Of a stretch of DNA of 64,000 nt, positions 1-8,096 are shown one piece after another (the stretch's first letter is position 1; every line of letters starts with the position of its first letter). The stretch is from Cellulomonas sp. Leaf334. GTDB taxonomy: Bacteria; Actinomycetota; Actinomycetes; Actinomycetales; Cellulomonadaceae. The position numbers were made by a program, and so were the translations under genes. The stretch lies in assembly GCF_001424195.1 (NCBI RefSeq), contig NZ_LMOO01000001.1, forward strand, positions 1,469,383 to 1,533,382, read 5' to 3'. The notes beneath the pieces were generated by a model. The model saw only the letters and a list, made by a program, of their open reading frames with translations. It did not search any database and had not been told where the DNA came from.

Positions 1-1034
1 CCGACGGGTCCGGCCGACAGCTGCGCCTCCACACCGATGAGGCGCGCCCGGTCCCGCCACCCGGTACGCCGCTGGCGTTCCAGGACCGTCGCCGCGACCG
101 CCGCGGTGTCCCGAGCGGTCTCGACGTCGCCGTCCAGCAGGCAGATCTGGGCCAGCCGGAGCTGTGCCTCCGCGCCCATGAACGGGACGTTCGCGGCACC
201 GAACTCGTCGACGGCGCGCGCCGCCGCCGCGCGCGCCTCGGGCAGCAGACGGAGGTCCGCCATCGTGTCGGCGTACTCCGCGTAGTACTCCCCCAGCGGC
301 AGACCGGCGTCGGCGTAGATCCGGGCCGCCGCCTCGAAGTCGCGCAGGCCGCGCGCCAGCTGCCCGGACTGGACGGCGATCCACGCCCGGCTCTGGATCG
401 CGGGCGCCGCGGCCGCGGGTCCCAACCGGTCGGCGACGGCGACCGCCTGGTCCGCCCGCCGCATCGCCTCCGCGTGACCGCCGCGCTCGGCCACGATGAG
501 CGCGAGGTTGTTGAGCAGCTTGTAGCGGTCGGTGTCGGTCAGGTCGGGCAGGTCGACCAGGGACCGGTACTGCGCCTCCGCGCGGTCGAGCAGGCCGGCG
601 TTGTGGTCGAAGGTCGCCCGCTGCGCCCGGATGTGCAGGAGGACCTCGCGCCGCTCCCCGTCGCCCACGTCGGACGCACCCTCGACCGCGACCAGCGCCG
701 CGTCGAGGTCACGCCGGGCCGCCGCGACCCGCCCCATCTCCTGCCGGACGGCCTGCCGGGTCATCAGCAGGTGCGCCTCGAGCATGCCGAGATCGTGCCG
801 ACGGCTCACCCGGACCGCCTCACCGAGCAGCCGTTCCGCCGTCGCGTGGTCCCACGCCGACCTGCGCGCCCACGCCAGAGCACGAAGGCTCCACGCGAGA
901 GCCTCGGGATCTGCCATCCTCCGAGCCAGGGCAACCGCGTCGAGCGCATCCGGCTCTCCCCGGCGGGGGTCCGTGCTCACCACATCAAAAAGTGCCCGTG
1001 CATGTATCACGAGCGCCACCGGCTGCTCTAACAC
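1..1034 (-). CDS. TPR-repeat protein, partial (C-terminus beyond left edge)
   Basis: The frame is open without a stop from a GTG at 1034 to the window edge, giving 344 visible residues. The N-terminus reads VLEQPVALVIHARALFDVV. The rest is almost wholly helical with Ala/Leu/Arg-rich repeats of TPR type, for example the segments LLNNLALIVAERGGHAEAM and GQLARGLRDFEAAARIYADA. No signal peptide or membrane segment is visible. An internal ATG at 919 is an alternative start. The gene diverges from the S8 protease operon across 86 bases. In actinobacteria, TPR proteins beside an S8 protease and a sigma factor often carry a C-terminal CHAT (caspase-like) domain. That part would lie outside the window, so the CHAT assignment is inference. 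The plus-strand open frames over this stretch are shadows. Confidence 0.72.
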   Translation of the reverse strand, partial: MLEQPVALVIHARALFDVVSTDPRRGEPDALDAVALARRMADPEALAWSLRALAWARRSAWDHATAERLLGEAVRVSRRHDLGMLEAHLLMTRQAVRQEMGRVAAARRDLDAALVAVEGASDVGDGERREVLLHIRAQRATFDHNAGLLDRAEAQYRSLVDLPDLTDTDRYKLLNNLALIVAERGGHAEAMRRADQAVAVADRLGPAAAAPAIQSRAWIAVQSGQLARGLRDFEAAARIYADAGLPLGEYYAEYADTMADLRLLPEARAAAARAVDEFGAANVPFMGAEAQLRLAQICLLDGDVETARDTAAVAATVLERQRRTGWRDRARLIGVEAQLSAGPV

Positions 1035-1120
1035 TTCAGACCGGTCGGGGCTCGAGGACCGGGCACTCGAGGACCGCGGGTACACACCTGCGGATTCTAG
1101 GCGGACGAAAGGGACCGAAC
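1035..1120. promoter_or_regulatory. Divergent control region with an 11-base direct repeat
   Basis: These 86 bases separate the divergent TPR and S8 genes and must hold both promoters. CTCGAGGACCG occurs at 1051-1061 and again at 1066-1076, a 15-base period. A GAAAGGGA ribosome-binding site (1107-1114) precedes the GTG at 1121. No clear -35/-10 pair was identified for either direction. Confidence 0.35.
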
Positions 1121-2533
1121 GTGACGAACTCCGGCGACGGCGGACAGCCCGGCCTGCCCTTCGGCAGCGACTACACGCCCGACGCGGCAGCGGCAGAGCC
1201 CGGGGCGCGGGTGCGACGACGCGTCCAACGGCAGGTCGAAGAGCTCTCGACGAACCGCACCAACCCCGTCTCACAACGACAGCTCGTCCGCGCCGTCAGC
1301 AGCCGCTACCAGGAGCGTCGTGGCCGCAGGCTCGCCACGGTCGTCGACCCCCGCGGGCTCGACGTGCTGCTCGTCTCCGACGAGATCCTCGTCACCGAGC
1401 AGACCTGGGCCGACCCGGGCGCCCGCGGCTACCTGGAGCGTCAGGGGCTGAGCGAAGACGACCTCGGCTGTCCCGACCTGGAGAGCCGCCTCGTCCGGCT
1501 GGTGACCTCGGAGGACCGGACCGCGCAGGACCTCGACGACATCGCCACGGAGCTCCGCAGCCGCGGGTTCGCCGCCTCGCTCACCCACATCACGCCCTGT
1601 TCCCCGGTCATCAAGTCCCGCAGCCTGGGCGGGCCCGCACCCGCCGACGGGCTCGTCCCCTTCGCCGACTACCCCGTCGTGGACGCCGGCAGCGGACCCG
1701 TGGCACGCGTGGCCGTCATCGACACCGGGATCGTCGGCGCCCCCCGGACCGACGGGTGGCTCCAGTCCGTGGAGCGGCACCGCCGGGACGACCCCGACAC
1801 GCACGGGAACGAGAACAACATCGACCTGCTCGACGTCGAGCCGCGCGACGGGCTCCTGGACTTCTCGGACGGGCACGGGACGTTCGTGAGCGGCATCGTC
1901 GCCCAGGTGGCACCGTCGGCGGACATCGCGGTGTACCGGGCCCTGCGGGGCGGCGGCGCCGGCAGCGAGCTCGACGTCGCCTGCGCGATGGTGCGCGCGG
2001 TGAAGGCCGGAGCCCAGGTCCTCAACCTCTCCCTCGGCTGCCAGACGCGTCACGACCAGCCGTCGTTGGCGATCGCCGCCGCGCTCGACTGGATCGGCGA
2101 GTTCGAGCGGACCCACGACGCCGAGGTCGTCGTGGTCGCGGCCGCAGGCAACTACGGCGACACCGCTCCGGTGTGGCCCGCCGCCTTCCGGCGCGTCGTC
2201 TCGGTCGCTGCGCTCGCGAGCGACCTGCGAGCCACGCCCTGGTCGAGCCACGGCTTCTGGGTGGACTGCTCGACGGTCGGCGAGGGCATCCAGTCCACGT
2301 TCGTCGAGGGCACCGAGTCCTACGAGTTCACCGGCGAGCCCGACACCTTCGGCCCCAACGCGTTCGCGCACTGGAGCGGCACCTCGTTCGCCGCACCGCA
2401 GGTCACCGGCGCGATCGCCCGAGCCATGCACGAGCACGGTCTCGGACCCCGCGAGGCATTCAGGTGGCTGATGGCTCGGGGCCGTGCGATCCCCGACTTC
2501 GGCCAGGCGCTGAGCATCCTCCCCGGCGTGTGA
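1121..2533 (+). CDS. S8 family subtilisin-like serine protease, apparently cytoplasmic
   Basis: A 470-residue protein with a complete subtilase catalytic set: Asp201 in VAVIDTGIVG, His252 in DGHGTFVSGIVAQ, oxyanion Asn344 in AAAGNYGD and Ser422 in WSGTSFAAPQVTGAIA. The start is the GTG at 1121, preceded by a GAAAGGGA ribosome-binding site; the frame is open further upstream but has no better start. The N-terminus (MTNSGDGGQPGLPFG) has no signal peptide, which is unusual for S8 proteases and suggests an intracellular target. About 190 residues before the catalytic domain match no family I recognise and could be an inhibitory or sensing region. The sigma factor gene follows after 48 bases. The protease fold is certain; the substrate is unknown. 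Cleavage of a neighbouring product such as the TPR protein is a hypothesis only. Confidence 0.9.
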   Translation: MTNSGDGGQPGLPFGSDYTPDAAAAEPGARVRRRVQRQVEELSTNRTNPVSQRQLVRAVSSRYQERRGRRLATVVDPRGLDVLLVSDEILVTEQTWADPGARGYLERQGLSEDDLGCPDLESRLVRLVTSEDRTAQDLDDIATELRSRGFAASLTHITPCSPVIKSRSLGGPAPADGLVPFADYPVVDAGSGPVARVAVIDTGIVGAPRTDGWLQSVERHRRDDPDTHGNENNIDLLDVEPRDGLLDFSDGHGTFVSGIVAQVAPSADIAVYRALRGGGAGSELDVACAMVRAVKAGAQVLNLSLGCQTRHDQPSLAIAAALDWIGEFERTHDAEVVVVAAAGNYGDTAPVWPAAFRRVVSVAALASDLRATPWSSHGFWVDCSTVGEGIQSTFVEGTESYEFTGEPDTFGPNAFAHWSGTSFAAPQVTGAIARAMHEHGLGPREAFRWLMARGRAIPDFGQALSILPGV

Positions 2534-2581
2534 GCCTTCGGACAAGGGCCGCGCGGAGCGACATGATGAGGGAGGGGAAGA

Positions 2582-3247
2582 ATGCGCGGATCTGAGAGGG
2601 AATGCGTCATGGAGCTAGAACCCGACCTCACCGACTCGTACCGGACGTGGGGGACGACCGCGCTCGTCACCGGTGCCCTCGGGGGCGACGAGCAGGCCTG
2701 GAACGAGATCGTCCGCCGGTACGCCCCTGCCGTCCTCGCCCGGGTCAGGCAGTTCCGGCTCACCCCCGACCTGGCCGAGGACGTCGCGCAGACCGTCTGG
2801 CTCAACCTGCTCGAGAACCTCGACAAGCTCCGTGAGCCCAAGGCGCTGCCCGGGTGGATCGCGACCACGGCGCACCACGAGTGCATCCGCGTCACCACGC
2901 GCAACCGCCGGTCGGTCCCCGTGGACCCGCTCGCGGGCAAGCTCGACGGACAGCTGGTCGTGGACCTCGACGAGGGCATCGACCGCGTCGAACGCCAGCG
3001 CGTGCTGCGGGAGAGCCTCAGCGAGCTCAACGAGCACCAGCGAGAGCTGCTCATGCTGCTGGTGGACGACCCTCCGCTCCCGTACGCGGAGATCGCACGA
3101 CGGCTGGACATCCCGGTCGGTTCGATCGGTCCCACCCGGGGCCGCATCCTGGCGCGGCTGCGACAGACAGCCGCGATACGCAACTACGTCGCGGCGAACG
3201 TCGCCGCATTCGGGGAGGAGGGTCACAGTGTCCTGGCACTCGAGTGA
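2582..3247 (+). CDS. Sigma-70 family (ECF-like) RNA polymerase sigma factor
   Basis: A 221-residue protein with sigma region 2 at about residues 30-100 (DEQAWNEIVRRYAPAVL, DLAEDVAQTVWLNLLENL) and region 4 at about 140-195 (LSELNEHQRELLMLLV, then the helix-turn-helix YAEIARRLDIPVGSIG followed by RGRILARLRQ). There is no region 1 or 3, as in ECF sigma factors. A GGAGGGG ribosome-binding site at 2571-2577 supports the ATG at 2582; an ATG at 2609 with GAGAGGG upstream is a credible alternative. The gene lies 48 bases after the S8 protease and overlaps the following gene by 20 bases, so all three are probably cotranscribed. No zinc-binding anti-sigma factor is adjacent; the next small protein is the only positional candidate for that role. 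Confidence 0.9.
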   Translation: MRGSERECVMELEPDLTDSYRTWGTTALVTGALGGDEQAWNEIVRRYAPAVLARVRQFRLTPDLAEDVAQTVWLNLLENLDKLREPKALPGWIATTAHHECIRVTTRNRRSVPVDPLAGKLDGQLVVDLDEGIDRVERQRVLRESLSELNEHQRELLMLLVDDPPLPYAEIARRLDIPVGSIGPTRGRILARLRQTAAIRNYVAANVAAFGEEGHSVLALE

Positions 3248-3755
3248 CGGCGCGAACGAATCAGGCAGGGGCATGCACCCCGCCAACAGGTGGAGCGACG
3301 ACGAGGCGCTGAGCGCGGAGCTGGTCGACGCGCTCATCGAAGGGCCGCTCTACGACCGCGTGGTCGCCGGTGCGACCACGGCCTTCCGCACCCACCGCCG
3401 GATGCTGGCGGACGACGACCAGATGGACTTCATCCTGCTGTCGCTCGTCCACGACTCCCGGATCTCGGGTGACGTGGTCGGTGTGCGCGACCGGACCGGT
3501 GGCGCCGCGCGGACCCTCGTCTTCCACGGCGACGACCTCGGCGTCGAGGTGGAGGTGCAGGCGGACGCGATCGACGGTCAGCTCGTGCCGCCGCGACCGG
3601 GTCAGGTCATCGTGCACGCCCCGGACGGCGTCGTGACGACGGTGGAGACGGACGAGGTCGGGTGCTTCCGCGTGGAGCTCGAGGCCGGCGGTCTGCTGCG
3701 CCTCGAGTGCAAGAGCGCCGGGAGCAGGTGCCTGACGGAGTGGTTCCCCTGGTGA
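3228..3755 (+). CDS. Uncharacterised protein of the protease-sigma operon
   Basis: A 175-residue protein starting at GTG 3228 behind a strong GGGGAGGAGG site, overlapping the sigma gene's 3' end by 20 bases, so the two are likely translationally coupled. The N-terminal third (DDEALSAELVDALIEG, DDDQMDFILLSLVHDS) is acidic and helical. The C-terminal half (from about residue 80) is predicted beta-rich (TLVFHGDDLGVEVEVQAD, GQVIVHAPDGVVTTVETD, GCFRVELEAG) and resembles the small beta-sandwich seen in carboxypeptidase-regulatory-like domains. There is no signal peptide or membrane helix. I do not recognise the family. Position suggests a partner or modulator of the sigma factor or protease. A strong hairpin terminator follows the stop codon. 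Confidence 0.8.
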   Translation: MSWHSSDGANESGRGMHPANRWSDDEALSAELVDALIEGPLYDRVVAGATTAFRTHRRMLADDDQMDFILLSLVHDSRISGDVVGVRDRTGGAARTLVFHGDDLGVEVEVQADAIDGQLVPPRPGQVIVHAPDGVVTTVETDEVGCFRVELEAGGLLRLECKSAGSRCLTEWFPW

Positions 3756-3770
3756 CCTGACGGGTCACAC

Positions 3771-3809
3771 GACGAAGGCCCGGTCCGCAGGGGGGACCGG
3801 GCCTTCGTC
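3771..3809. terminator. Bidirectional hairpin terminator
   Basis: A perfect 16-bp stem (3771-3786 paired with 3794-3809) closes a 7-base loop. It lies between the convergent ends of the protease-sigma operon (plus) and rplA (minus), so it can serve both strands. Confidence 0.85.
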
Positions 3810-3824
3810 GTGCTGGCGCAACCG

Positions 3825-4544
3825 TCAGGCGGCGTCGTCCTCCGACGTGAGGTTCCGCGTCTTGTTCTGGTCGACGAGGATGCCGGGGCCGTTCGTCGTC
3901 GAGAAGGTCGCCTTCGCGATGTAGCGGCCCTTCGAGGCGGACGGCTTCAGACGCAGGATCTCGTCGAGCGCGGCGGCGTAGTTCTCCACCAGCGCGGTGT
4001 CGCTGAACGAGGTCTTGCCGATGATGAAGTGCAGGTTCGCGTGACGGTCCACGCGGAACTCGATCTTCCCGCCCTTGATGTCGGACACGGCCTTGGCCAC
4101 GTCCATCGTCACGGTGCCCGTCTTCGGGTTCGGCATGAGACCACGCGGGCCCAGGACCTTGCCCAGTCGACCGACCTTGCCCATGAGGTCGGGCGTCGCG
4201 ACGGCGGAGTCGAAGTCGGTGTACCCGGCCGCGACCTTGTCGATCAGCTCGTCGCCGCCGACCTCGTCGGCGCCGGCCGCACGGGCCTGCTCGGCACGCT
4301 CGCCCGTCGCGAAGACGATGACGCGGGCGGTCTTGCCGGTGCCGTGGGGCAGGTTGACCGTGCCACGGACCATCTGGTCCGCCTTGCGCGGGTCGACACC
4401 GAGGCGGAAGGCCACCTCGACGGTCGCGTCGTACTTGGTGGTCGACGTCGTCTGCGCGAGGCGGACGGCCTCGAGGGGCGTGTAGAGGTGCCCCTCCTCG
4501 ATCTTCTCGACCGCGGCGCGGTACGCCTTGCTGTGCTTGGCCAT
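3825..4544 (-). CDS. rplA: 50S ribosomal protein L1
   Basis: A 239-residue protein of full L1 length. It binds 23S rRNA at the mobile L1 stalk, and in many bacteria it also represses its own mRNA. Diagnostic segments include [14 protein letters not shown] at the start, [20 protein letters not shown] near the middle, and [20 protein letters not shown] in the C-terminal part. It is the last gene of the minus-strand block tRNA-Trp-secE-nusG-rplK-rplA, the standard bacterial order. A 139-base spacer with a hairpin separates it from rplK, and a strong bidirectional terminator lies just past its stop. Confidence 0.98.
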
Positions 4545-4633
4545 GCTGTTCTCCTGTCGTGGTCAGTCGGGCTGTTCAGGCCCTTCCACATGTGTCTCAG
4601 CGAGCCGGACTCGGCCCACTGTGTCGTGCTGTC

Positions 4634-4667
4634 GGTCAGCCCGAGGTTCCTTCTTCTCGGTCTGACC
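4634..4667 (-). promoter_or_regulatory. Hairpin in the rplK-rplA spacer
   Basis: Arms 4634-4645 and 4656-4667 form a 12-bp stem with one mismatch around a 10-base loop, about 90 bases upstream of the rplA start. There is no U-tract, so it may be an mRNA processing or partial termination structure. I could not match it to a known L1 operator. Confidence 0.4.
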
Positions 4668-4683
4668 TTCGCTCACACTCCGG

Positions 4684-5115
4684 TCAGCCCTCGACCTTGA
4701 TGCCCATCGAGCGGGCCGTGCCGGCGATGATCTTCTCGGCCGCGGCGAGGTCGTTCGCGTTGAGGTCCTCGAGCTTGGTGCTCGCGATCTCGCTGATCTG
4801 CGCCTTGGTGAGAGTGGCGACCTTCACGGTGTGCGGCGTCGGGGAGCCCTTGGCGACACCGGCGGCCTTCTTGATCAGCTCAGCGGCCGGCGGCGTCTTC
4901 GTGATGAAGGTGAACGAGCGGTCCTCGTACACCGTGATCTCCACGGGGATGACGTTGCCGCGCTGCGCCTCGGTGGCCGCGTTGTACGCCTTGCAGAACT
5001 CCATGATGTTGACGCCGTGCTGGCCCAGTGCCGGACCGATGGGCGGCGCAGGAGTGGCCGCGCCGGCCTTGATCTGGAGCTTGATCAGGCCGGTGACCTT
5101 CTTCTTCGGGGGCAT
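4684..5115 (-). CDS. rplK: 50S ribosomal protein L11
   Basis: A 143-residue protein of normal length. It forms the GTPase-associated centre with 23S rRNA and is needed for RelA-type stringent signalling. Recognisable segments are [20 protein letters not shown] and [19 protein letters not shown] at the N-terminus and the RNA-binding C-terminal part around [10 protein letters not shown]. It follows nusG by 82 bases on the minus strand and precedes rplA, the conserved order. Confidence 0.98.
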
Positions 5116-5197
5116 TGCTACATCCGTTCGTGTCGTGGGCCGACGCCGTGGGCGATGACCCGGTTGCAGTGCTCGCCCGCAGCGCGGGGAGCGTCAG

Positions 5198-6010
5198 TCA
5201 GATCTTGGCGACCTGGCTGAAGGACAGCTCGACCGGGGTCTCCCGGCCGAAGATGGAGACGAGGACCTTGAGCTTCTGGTTCTCGGCGTTGATCTCGGAG
5301 ATCGTCGCGGGCAGCGTGTCGAACGGGCCGTCCGTGACGGTGACCGACTCGCCGACGGTGAAGTCGACCTTGATCTGCGACGCGGCCTTCGCGGCACCCG
5401 CGGCCGTGGTCGGCTGCTTGGGCTCCAGCGACGGCGCGAGCATCGAGAAGACCTCGTCGAGCGTCAGCGGCACGGGCTGGTGCGTGTGGCCGACGAAGCC
5501 GGTCACGCCCGGCGTGTGCCGGACGGCGCCCCACGACTCGTCGGTGAGGTCCATGCGGACCAGGACGTACCCGGGGATCCGGACGCGCTTGACGACCTTG
5601 CGCTGCGCGTTCTTGATCTCCACGACCTCTTCCATGGGGACCTCCACCGCGAAGATGTAGTCCTCCATGTTCAGGCTCTGGCGACGGTTCTCGAGGTTCG
5701 CCTTCACGCGGTTCTCGTAGCCCGCGTAGGAGTGGATGACGTACCAGTCACCGAGCTGGCTCCGGAGCTGCGCCTTGAACGCGGCGACCGGGTCCTCCTC
5801 GACGTCGGGCTCGTCCTCGGCCTCCTCGGCCTCGTCGGCGGCAGGCTCAGCACCCTCGTCGGCCGGCTCGTCGCTCTCGGTGGCGTCGGCGACGACGTCC
5901 TCGGACGAGGCGTCCTCGACGGCCGACGACTCGACGGCCTCGACCGACGCGATGGCGTCCTCGAGCTCCGCCTCGGCGCCCGTGGTGGGCTCCTGCGACT
6001 CCTGCGACAC
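5198..6010 (-). CDS. nusG: Transcription termination/antitermination protein NusG with acidic N-terminal extension
   Basis: A 270-residue NusG; the E. coli protein is 181. Residues 1-80 or so are an extension very rich in Glu, Asp, Ala and Ser (for example [18 protein letters not shown]-like runs). The NGN domain follows ([43 protein letters not shown]), then a linker and the KOW domain ([37 protein letters not shown]). It binds RNA polymerase and links it to Rho or the ribosome. Acidic extensions are common on actinobacterial NusG proteins, but their function is not settled. The gene sits between secE and rplK. Confidence 0.97.
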
Positions 6011-6119
6011 GTGCGAACCTGCTTTCTCCTGCGTGTGCGCCCCGGCGTGCCGGTGCGATGTGTGCTCGACCCAGGTGGGGCGACATCCTCGTTCGTCGGA
6101 GCCGGAGCCCCGCGCGGTG

Positions 6120-6407
6120 TCAGCCTCCGAAGACCCAGAACGTGAGCTTGCCGATGCCCAGGTCGACCACCGTGACGAAGGCCATGACCACCGCGACGAA
6201 CACCAGGACGACGCTCGTGTAGGTGATCAGCTCCGACCGCGTGGGTCGGACGACCTTCTTCAGCTCCGCGACGACCTGGCGGACGAAGAGCGCGATGCGC
6301 GCGAACAGTCCGCCACGGGACTCGCCCTTGCGGGCGGCCTTGGACGTCGACGGGCGTGCCGCCGAACCCTCGGCGTCGGACGCCGCAGCCGGTGCTGTTT
6401 CGCTCAC
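6120..6407 (-). CDS. secE: Preprotein translocase subunit SecE
   Basis: A 95-residue single-span SecE of the short Gram-positive type. After a basic, Ala-rich N-terminal tail comes the conserved amphipathic segment ([20 protein letters not shown]) and one transmembrane helix near the C-terminus ([19 protein letters not shown]). It clamps SecY in the membrane. Its position between tRNA-Trp and nusG is the classic actinobacterial arrangement and confirms the call despite the short length. Confidence 0.96.
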
Positions 6408-6558
6408 GTCTGGCCCCTACGTCTCGTGATGGTTCGTCGAGCCGAGTTCCGTGCGGAAATCGGCGAACGGACGGGCCGACGCGTCGCGCCGGACCGACCG
6501 GCGGTCCTGCTCGCTTCTCCTGGACCACCGGGCGAACCCGGAGAACCAGACGCGTGCG

Positions 6559-6631
6559 CAGGGCAGACAGGACTCGAACCTGCAACCTGCGGTTTTGGAG
6601 ACCGCTGCGCTACCAATTGCGCCACTGCCCT
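6559..6631 (-). tRNA. tRNA-Trp (anticodon CCA)
   Basis: A 73-base cloverleaf. The acceptor strands AGGGCAG and CTGCCCT pair fully, the anticodon loop reads CTCCAAA, and the T-arm contains GGTTCGAGTCC. The 3' CCA is not encoded. It lies directly upstream of secE. Confidence 0.95.
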
Positions 6632-6758
6632 ACGGCGGTCTGGCCTCCATGACCGGACCCGCGCGACACCGACGGACACCACCCGGAGGGGGTCCGTGCA
6701 GCTACCGGAGTTCTCCGGGGCACGGCTGATCATGGCGGACGTCAACCGCCGGGGGTCC

Positions 6759-6788
6759 ACTGTACGCGACGAGCGCCGATGGGTCGAA
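6759..6788 (-). promoter_or_regulatory. Candidate promoter for the tRNA-Trp-secE-nusG block
   Basis: Reading the minus strand, TTCGAC (6783-6788) and TACAGT (6759-6764) are separated by 18 bases, a sigma-A-like spacing. The rest of the 6632-6875 gap between tRNA-Trp and the divergent aspC holds only a short CCGGAG/CTCCGG hairpin and the aspC promoter. Confidence 0.35.
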
Positions 6789-6875
6789 CCGTCCTCGAGG
6801 CGGCGTGAAACCCACCGATATCACTCCCCGACATCGATGGGCACCGGCGGACGTGACCTCTGCCACTATGGCCCC

Positions 6876-8096
6876 GTGAGCGAGCAGACCCCTCCCCGTG
6901 CCCGTGTGTCCGCCCGACTGGCCGCGATCGCCGAGTCCGCGACGCTGGCGGTCGACGCCAAGGCCAAGGCGCTCAAGGCCGCCGGTCGCCCCGTGATCGG
7001 CTTCGGCGCCGGGGAGCCCGACTTCCCGACGCCCGGTTACATCGTCGAGGCCGCGATCGCCGCGGCGAAGGACCCGGTCAACCACCGCTACACGCCCGCC
7101 GCGGGACTGCCGGCGCTGCGGGAGGCGGTCGCCGCGAAGACGCTGCGCGACTCCGGGTACGAGGTGAAGCCGTCGAGCGTGCTGGTCACCAACGGCGGCA
7201 AGCAGGCGGTCTACCAGTCGTTCGCGGCGATCGTGGACCCGGGCGACGAGGTCCTGCTCCCCGCCCCCTACTGGACCACCTACCCGGAGGCGATCCGGCT
7301 GGCGGGCGGCGTGCCCGTCGAGGTGTTCGCGGGGGTCGACCAGGGCTACCTCGTGACGGTCGAGCAGCTCGAGGCCGCGCGCACGCCGCGCACCAAGGTG
7401 CTGCTGTTCTGCTCGCCGTCCAACCCGACCGGTGCGGTGTACTCGCCCGAGCAGACCGCCGCGATCGGCCGCTGGGCCCTCGAGCACGGAGTCTGGGTCA
7501 TCACCGACGAGATCTACGAGCACCTCACCTACGACGACGCGGTGTTCACGCCCATCGTTCGCGCGGTGCCGGAGCTGGCGGACACGACGATCGTCCTCAA
7601 CGGCGTCGCCAAGACCTACGCGATGACGGGGTGGCGGGTCGGCTGGATGATCGGCCCGGCCGACGTCATCACCGCCGCGACGAACCTGCAGTCGCACCTG
7701 ACGTCGAACGTCGCGAACGTGTCGCAGCGGGCCGCGATCACCGCGCTCACGGGCGACCTCGCCGCCGTCGAGGAGATGCGGACCGCGTTCGACCGGCGCC
7801 GGCGCACGATCGTCGAGATGCTGTCGCAGATCGACGGCGTGCGGATCCCCGCACCCGAGGGGGCGTTCTACGTCTACCCGTCCGTCGAGGGCGTGCTGGG
7901 CCGCACGATCCGGGGCGTGACGCCGCGCACGTCGGCGGAGCTGGCCACCCTGATCCTGGAGCAGGCCGAGGTCGCGGTGGTGCCCGGTGAGGCGTTCGGC
8001 CCGAGCGGGTACCTGCGGCTGTCCTACGCGCTGAGCGACGCCGACCTGGTCGAGGGCGTCACCCGGATCCAGGCGCTGCTGGCCGAGGCCGAGTAG
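6876..8096 (+). CDS. aspC: PLP-dependent class I aminotransferase, aspartate aminotransferase-like
   Basis: A 406-residue fold-type I aminotransferase. Visible features are [13 protein letters not shown] near the N-terminus, the substrate loop [10 protein letters not shown], the PLP ring-binding [11 protein letters not shown], the Asp/Tyr pair in ITDEIYEHL, the Schiff-base Lys246 in [16 protein letters not shown] and a C-terminal Arg in LRLSYALS. It probably transfers the aspartate amino group to 2-oxoglutarate. The GTG at 6876 is chosen because the protein then starts at the family's usual point and because a CACTAT -10 element lies 6 bases upstream, suggesting a leaderless mRNA. The adjacency of aspC and secE is also known in Streptomyces. 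Confidence 0.93.

Follow-up and report, generated by a model that had tools for sequence, protein, structure and literature searches.

Four genes fill the interval between rplJ and rplA in Cellulomonas sp. Leaf334, at the left end of the analyzed stretch of 64,000 nucleotides (contig NZ_LMOO01000001.1, positions 1,469,383 to 1,533,382 of the forward strand; hereafter the window). They encode, on the minus strand, a tetratricopeptide repeat (TPR) protein ending in a CHAT domain and, on the plus strand, a subtilisin-like S8 serine protease, an extracytoplasmic function (ECF)-type sigma factor and a 175-residue small protein, in that order. We tentatively propose, with somewhat less than even confidence, that these genes form an autoregulated protease-sigma switch of the ECF54 type, in which the CHAT protease cuts the small protein and the sigma factor is freed. 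The computations establish the identities of the genes, their intact active sites, the near-constant pairing of sigma factor and small protein, a recurrent motif with its position, and co-divergence; binding, cleavage, promoter function, sign of regulation, signal and outcome are what we infer. In this scheme the small beta-sandwich protein would keep the sigma factor inactive, the TPR superhelix would sense a signal, and the activated CHAT domain would cut the small protein, the candidate site being the invariant Arg87 in a low-confidence loop. The freed sigma factor would act on GTATCA(G/C)-N15-17-CTC promoters, those of its own unit at the least, and this feedback would raise the amounts of S8 protease, sigma factor and inhibitor; a second protease (S8, or an apparently trypsin-like enzyme in some other Cellulomonas) would mature or trim the CHAT protein or would itself be the output. 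Locus coordinates refer to the window unless prefixed, and L- and G-numbers denote fetched loci and genomes.

Conservation of the four-gene module

The sigma factor gene (2582..3247, plus strand, with an in-frame alternative start at 2609) encodes regions 2 and 4; Sigma70_r2 was matched with an E-value of 1.9e-11 in Pfam and TIGR02937 with 5.6e-18, above its cut-off, and the region 4 models fall just below the Pfam cut-off. The gene overlaps by 20 bases that of the small protein (3228..3755, plus strand), which suggests translational coupling of the two. The small protein is the near-constant partner of the sigma factor: in a sigma-anchored set, comprising the best 80 of 391 sigma relatives from a separate genome scan, it is present in 75 loci, CHAT in 73 and S8 in 71, and three of the loci without it (L251, L256 and L279) stop just 3' of the sigma gene. 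A sequence-only reading of this DNA had described the four genes, at positions and on strands that agree with ours, and the overlap counted above; its suggestion of the 175-residue protein as sigma partner is borne out insofar as co-occurrence and co-divergence make it the best candidate, and the comparison of gene order across genera that it had called for finds the set recurring in many of them.

With the small protein as query, the family search matched 31 of 200 genomes, and a small-protein profile matched 79 of the 394 genomes searched in the class, in 41 of 138 genera. Named genera in the sigma-anchored set include Nocardioides, Geodermatophilus, Blastococcus, Actinoplanes, Micromonospora, Kribbella and Nonomuraea. 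Among 24 Cellulomonas-type loci fetched, 21 present rplJ, CHAT, S8, sigma, small protein and rplA in that order, with extra genes preceding rplA in some; in L055, L059 and L060, rplJ and/or CHAT are not in the fetched stretch. At L040:9265-10122, a second, shorter S8-like open reading frame (ORF) and a transporter-like ORF, both identified by eye, lie between the small protein and rplA. Forty-six further small-protein loci (6 from the family search and 40 chosen from the class search, some ending at contig edges) contain sigma in 44 cases, CHAT in 39 and S8 in 36, in 14 arrangements including incomplete ones; L066 (G136), a weak match with no module, was dropped. Five of the 46 (L111, L113, L116, L123 and L130) carry sigma and small protein with no CHAT or S8 in the fetched stretch; read by eye, their neighbors differ from those of the module. 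The small protein lies 4.3 kb distant in Blastococcus, and in Geodermatophilus all four genes are found in L235 and L246 and only sigma and small protein in L240. That the four genes are merely unrelated neighbors is hardly credible, given their association in many genera, with 11 complete gene arrangements among 86 distinct loci, and the recurrent motif described below.

Co-divergence of the four proteins

Co-divergence was assessed as rank partial correlations of pairwise distances, with bootstrap ranges, across these 86 loci, which were kept for having all four proteins long enough and a sigma factor not near-identical to another. The strongest values were obtained for S8-CHAT (0.58 [0.48,0.66]) and sigma-small protein (0.57 [0.48,0.65]), followed by small protein-CHAT (0.26 [0.14,0.38]); the remaining pairs yielded -0.13 [-0.22,0.00] for sigma-S8, 0.10 [-0.03,0.20] for sigma-CHAT and 0.09 [-0.03,0.21] for small protein-S8. 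An earlier set of 52 loci, analyzed with plain distances, had given 0.78 for sigma-small protein, 0.66 for CHAT-S8 and 0.26 for small protein-CHAT. These values fit a putative contact order of sigma, small protein, CHAT and S8, though not in every subset, and the CHAT-S8 value is in line with a possible mutual action of both proteases. The small protein-CHAT link stays where the two are not neighbors (n = 64; 0.30 [0.14,0.40]), and where the small protein lies beside S8 (n = 28) it reaches 0.34, with -0.02 for small protein-S8. A fifth subset, which omits only loci up to L060 (n = 74), gives 0.19 [0.04,0.32] for small protein-CHAT and -0.16 for sigma-S8.

Pairing and co-divergence indicate partnership and not its sign. 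The small protein might instead be a co-activator, a stabilizer or an output, and the proteases might act on this protein or elsewhere. ECF sigma factors that have a constant partner are as a rule inhibited by it, and by this analogy we regard that alternative as distinctly unlikely. We take the small protein as a candidate for both the sigma-holding protein and the protease substrate.

The small protein and the ECF54 proposal

The AlphaFold2 model of the small protein comprises two N-terminal helices of low confidence (predicted local distance difference test, pLDDT, 63-69 in blocks 21-70) and a confident beta-sandwich (pLDDT 83-96 in blocks 91-175). Solved structures matched by the model are immunoglobulin-like (Ig-like) beta-sandwiches (best Z 9.0, rmsd 2.0, 72 residues aligned), among which no relative stands out, and the best PDB sequence match of the small-protein profile is a biofilm-associated surface protein, in the sandwich only (E = 1.9e-05). 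The small protein of the window has no Pfam match, and PADLOC models match neither it nor the CHAT protein. Across the family, PF13620 (CarboxypepD_reg), a regulatory-like, non-catalytic domain, was matched by 16 of 22 members scanned (best E = 2.4e-05), and for this reason the 'carboxypeptidase' reported in ECF54 neighborhoods is probably this non-enzymatic small beta-sandwich protein. Only R87, G117 and G145 are fully invariant among 86 distinct small proteins. Arg87 lies in a model block (81-90) with a pLDDT of 55, is followed in all 86 proteins by S, G, D, A or N and is preceded by Val in 72 of 86; as a working hypothesis, an Arg-specific caspase-like cut may occur here.

This assignment bears on the existing proposal for ECF54, which holds that there is no anti-sigma factor and that the proteases degrade the sigma factor itself, keeping the system off, and which rests on the carboxypeptidase, subtilase and CHAT neighbors as summarized in PMC8999054. 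Proteases do accompany sigma at most sigma-anchored loci (CHAT 73/80, S8 71/80), and sigma-CHAT co-divergence reaches 0.41 where S8 adjoins sigma (n = 38). Over all 86 loci, however, sigma co-diverges with neither S8 nor CHAT once the other proteins are accounted for, the supposed carboxypeptidase is probably non-enzymatic, and sigma and small protein occur without either protease in 5 of 46 stretches, so that degradation of the sigma factor appears unlikely to us.

The TPR-CHAT protein

Extending the TPR gene leftward and comparing it with CHAT profiles, as the sequence-only reading had advised, revealed that the 880-residue TPR protein ends in a CHAT domain (PF12770, E = 3.2e-26); the claim of the same reading regarding an intact S8 triad also holds, D201, H252 and S422 being conserved among relatives, and its claim of a protease devoid of signal agrees with an inspection of the N-terminus by eye, in which no signal peptide was seen. 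Over the 880 residues, Pfam returned only CHAT and two weak TPR matches. Among 62 aligned relatives, the CHAT dyad is conserved wherever a residue aligns (H752 in 57 of 57, C792 in 56 of 56), for which reason the CHAT protease is probably active. The model of the protein (pLDDT 86.9) is predicted to combine a helical superhelix with a caspase-like domain. VIA-align ranks Csx29, of the type III-E Craspase system, first (8eey_B, Z 33.1, rmsd 7.8, 535 aligned; 7y83_D, Z 32.7), just ahead of an APC/C subunit matched in its TPR region (4ui9_O, Z 32.1, residues 1-404 of the model), and below it come separases (5u1s_A, Z 29.9) and then DdvA (8rot_A, Z 25.1, rmsd 4.6, 626 aligned). Foldseek ranks human separase first (9hma, E = 3.0e-16), DdvA eighth (8rw5, 5.9e-14) and Csx29 eleventh (1.1e-13), and a sequence search with the TPR-CHAT protein reaches Csx29 only at E = 0.16.

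The likeness to DdvA, in both 8rot_A and 8rw5, the latter ahead of the first Csx29 match in Foldseek, raises the alternative that the anti-sigma role falls to the TPR-CHAT protein and that the small protein does something else. We consider this very unlikely: the 880 residues contain no anti-sigma domain that Pfam recognizes, no membrane segment is apparent by eye, the dyad is invariant where aligned, as for a protease, and sigma-CHAT co-divergence over all loci has a range that includes zero (0.10 [-0.03,0.20]), though it is 0.41 in one subset. No motif copy has CHAT as its nearest gene (see below); where CHAT is divergent, it would lie outside the feedback loop and could be a standing sensor.

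The second protease and its exchange

The S8 gene (1121..2533, plus strand) encodes 470 residues (PF00082, E = 1.1e-28). Among 60 aligned relatives with a residue at the position, D201, H252, S422 and N344 are conserved in 57/57, 60/60, 60/60 and 60/60, respectively; with the triad conserved wherever residues align, this protease is probably active too. Among the PADLOC models of anti-phage defense systems, S8 matches a generic subtilase (1.4e-11) and IetS (7.4e-06), and the sigma factor has a marginal match (0.011); a role of the module in defense is at most possible.

The second protease is apparently exchanged, being of S8 type here and trypsin-like in some other Cellulomonas. Twenty genomes of the genus were listed without a small-protein match; CHAT was matched in 14 of these, and in 13 the match lies next to rplJ, at 31-34% identity. 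From these, ten seats whose two borders share a contig were retrieved (L282-L291), and broader profiles identified sigma, small protein and CHAT in all ten, so that the earlier 'absence' of the small protein in those genomes is partly a limit of the query. No S8 was detected in the ten seats at E = 0.01. Gene-by-gene reading of two seats, L282 and L284, showed next to the operon a divergent gene for a trypsin-like protein of about 600 residues (Trypsin_2, E = 1.3e-05 and 3.6e-05, each below the curated cut-off). The seat is empty in G152 (about 470 bases) and holds other ORFs in G177. L055 contains two adjacent versions of the module, at 1-2700 (sigma-small protein-CHAT) and 2787-8085 (CHAT-S8-sigma-small protein) of that locus, and a separate motif copy accompanies each. 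Beside the module, trypsin-like proteases with lengths of about 560-630 residues were observed at L067:8461-10146, L055:8196-10088 and L282:6361-8160, the first two displaying long PFTE/PFTQ repeats near the C-terminus.

A promoter-like motif upstream of module genes

Instances of GTATCA(G/C)-N15-17-CTC point toward the start of S8, sigma or the small protein in 46 of 70 and 36 of 80 loci, two sets that share genomes and whose counts are hence not independent. The instance in the window, GTATCAC-N15-CTC (1004..1028, plus strand), points toward the S8, sigma and small-protein genes. No copy of a scrambled -35 was found toward S8, sigma or small-protein starts in either set, one of the scrambled controls having been entered twice under two names. 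The nearest gene of 87 motif copies is S8 in 56 cases, sigma in 27, the small protein in 4 and CHAT in none, at a median distance of 95 bases, which in many loci is counted to a domain edge and not to the start codon. The -10 element (CTC) is weaker than the -35: without requiring it, GTATCA(G/C) points toward a module gene in 47 of 70 and 53 of 80 loci, and 17 of the 55 copies toward module genes in the 80-locus set lack CTC at N15-17. With CTC at a spacing of 8-10, 13 and 14 loci were obtained, and other control spacings yielded 3 and 1, and 0 and 0. Since the motif recurs before S8 or sigma across genera, it suggests that the sigma factor is autoregulated.

The orientation of the motif was chosen post hoc, after the data had been seen. 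The opposite reading, GAG-N15-17-(C/G)TGATAC toward CHAT, was rejected because the motif precedes S8, sigma or the small protein in many gene orders. A second motif, GGGCAC-N16-18-CATGATG, located between S8 and sigma, was left unused, as it occurs only in part of the Cellulomonas loci. Some Nocardioides copies face a small divergent gene, and copies in L064 and L067 face trypsin-like genes. The Nocardioides-type small ORF, divergent from sigma, was observed in 11 of 30 loci examined (L204:7456-7890 and ten others); its product starts with MTW(N/T) and has a weak Pfam match only, and the motif is often aimed at this gene. At L145:1501-1621, a motif-like site precedes a gene that we take to be DoxX-like, the downstream gene having been read only in the genome of the window; near-identical copies of the site occur in G179, G181 and G188. 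Given the inverted repeat within it, this site may serve another regulator.

Evidence weighing against the proposed switch

Several observations weigh against the switch as proposed. Co-divergence is indirect evidence for a contact order, and its pattern is not uniform: where small protein and CHAT are neighbors (n = 22) their link is not clear (0.20 [-0.26,0.57]), and where S8 lies beside sigma (n = 38) the chain dissolves into sigma-CHAT 0.41, small protein-S8 0.35, small protein-CHAT 0.34, sigma-small protein 0.29, S8-CHAT 0.22 and sigma-S8 0.17. The partnership has gaps as well, with L098 and L134 carrying the small protein without sigma in the fetched stretch, and L252 and L278 having space beside sigma in which no small protein was found; sigma-small protein pairs without CHAT, moreover, need another trigger. 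Arg87 may be structural instead of a cleavage site, and Csx30, as presented in PMC9729208, is cut after Leu407 and not after an arginine such as the one proposed here. Csx30 is absent from the PDB sequence matches of the small-protein profile (E up to 10), as it is from the listed fold matches, and DdvA stands above Csx29 in Foldseek.

The motif, too, is less specific than a closed loop would suggest. Copies aimed only away from a module gene number 6 and 20 in the two sets. In its looser form the motif has 13 sites in the own genome, of which 1 is at the module and 12 lie elsewhere versus 2 reversed, and 29 sites in four relatives, with 1 module site each and 25 elsewhere versus 11 reversed. 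The stricter TGTATCA form, with module assignment as a reading of the result rows, occurs in 10 module-bearing Cellulomonas genomes 9 times at the module and 7 times elsewhere versus 4 reversed, and in 10 other genomes at 6 sites (one, in G057, at a variant module) versus 0 reversed. These other genomes are not clean controls, given that a diverged CHAT sits beside rplJ in 13 of the 20 genomes listed as lacking a small-protein match. Because of the motif copies elsewhere and these control genomes, a closed feedback loop is suggested at most, and a few further targets beyond the module are possible.

Gene boundaries and flanking features

The N-terminal part of the TPR-CHAT gene occupies 1..1034 on the minus strand, with a GTG at about 1034, and reaches past the left edge of the window; the whole gene (L007:8392-11034, 880 codons) extends 1609 bases to the left of it. 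As the promoter-like motif overlaps its first codons, the true start may be slightly downstream of that GTG. The left border of the module in Cellulomonas is rplJ (L007:7570-8148) and the right border is rplA, encoding L1 (3825..4544, minus strand). Between the module and the convergent rplA, a perfect 17-bp hairpin was read from the sequence (3770..3810). It is a possible terminator; there is no T-run 3' of it and it is not among the terminator-scan results.

Comparison with known systems

Separase, which provides the top Foldseek matches, resembles the TPR-CHAT protein in its helical superhelix and caspase-like domain, but is a eukaryotic, cohesin-cutting enzyme with no sigma link. DdvA, considered here from the titles of PDB entries 8rot and 8rw5, shares a TPR-CHAT-like fold and is titled an anti-sigma factor; unlike the module, it is transmembrane by title, whereas a separate small partner is present here and Pfam found no anti-sigma domain. 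Neighborhoods of caspase, TPR and ECF sigma genes have been described as conflict systems, in the account of PMC8195603. These Caspase/EACC2-TRADD-N neighborhoods share with the module caspase-like and trypsin-like proteases, TPR, ECF sigma and a proposed proteolytic activation, and are set apart by that description through other families (EACC2, DUF1822).

The ECF54 group reportedly stems from the classification of Casas-Pastor 2021. Judged from the neighborhood as summarized in PMC8999054, the module fits ECF54, a precedent that the sequence-only reading had not mentioned: an ECF sigma factor of regions 2 and 4 has CHAT, subtilase and carboxypeptidase(-regulatory) neighbors, and the listed model sigma factor is from Geodermatophilus, a genus that holds relatives of the module. 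What that summary offers for ECF54, solely as a proposal, is control by proteolysis with no anti-sigma factor involved, in contrast to the small beta-sandwich protein proposed here as constant sigma partner. To the ECF54 picture the present analysis adds this proposed partner, the motif, a second protease that is apparently exchanged and a Craspase-like reading. Should the small protein prove to be the partner that ECF54 lacks, four proteins and one promoter would suffice for a direct test of the group.

In Craspase (type III-E; gRAMP/Cas7-11, Csx29, Csx30 and RpoE), according to the passages on it in PMC9729208, the substrate that the TPR-CHAT protease cuts is Csx30, a protein bound to the sigma factor RpoE; genes for CHAT substrates commonly lie close by. 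Shared with the module are a TPR-CHAT fold with a His/Cys dyad, a sigma factor of the ECF type and a third protein, proposed to bind sigma and to serve as the substrate. The module differs in its second serine protease; no gRAMP/Cas7-11 gene lies between rplJ and rplA, the rest of the genome not having been searched for cas genes or CRISPR. A fuller version of the proposed switch would make the module a widespread, CRISPR-free actinobacterial counterpart of the Craspase output arm. In it, the separase-like TPR-CHAT protease would cut a small inhibitor of CarboxypepD_reg type at its invariant Arg and so release the sigma factor, whose main target would be its own operon; the result would be a self-amplifying switch whose serine protease, of subtilisin or trypsin type, is exchangeable. 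We hold this version to be rather doubtful; if true, the Craspase logic of TPR-CHAT protease, substrate and sigma factor would be a general signaling unit outside CRISPR.

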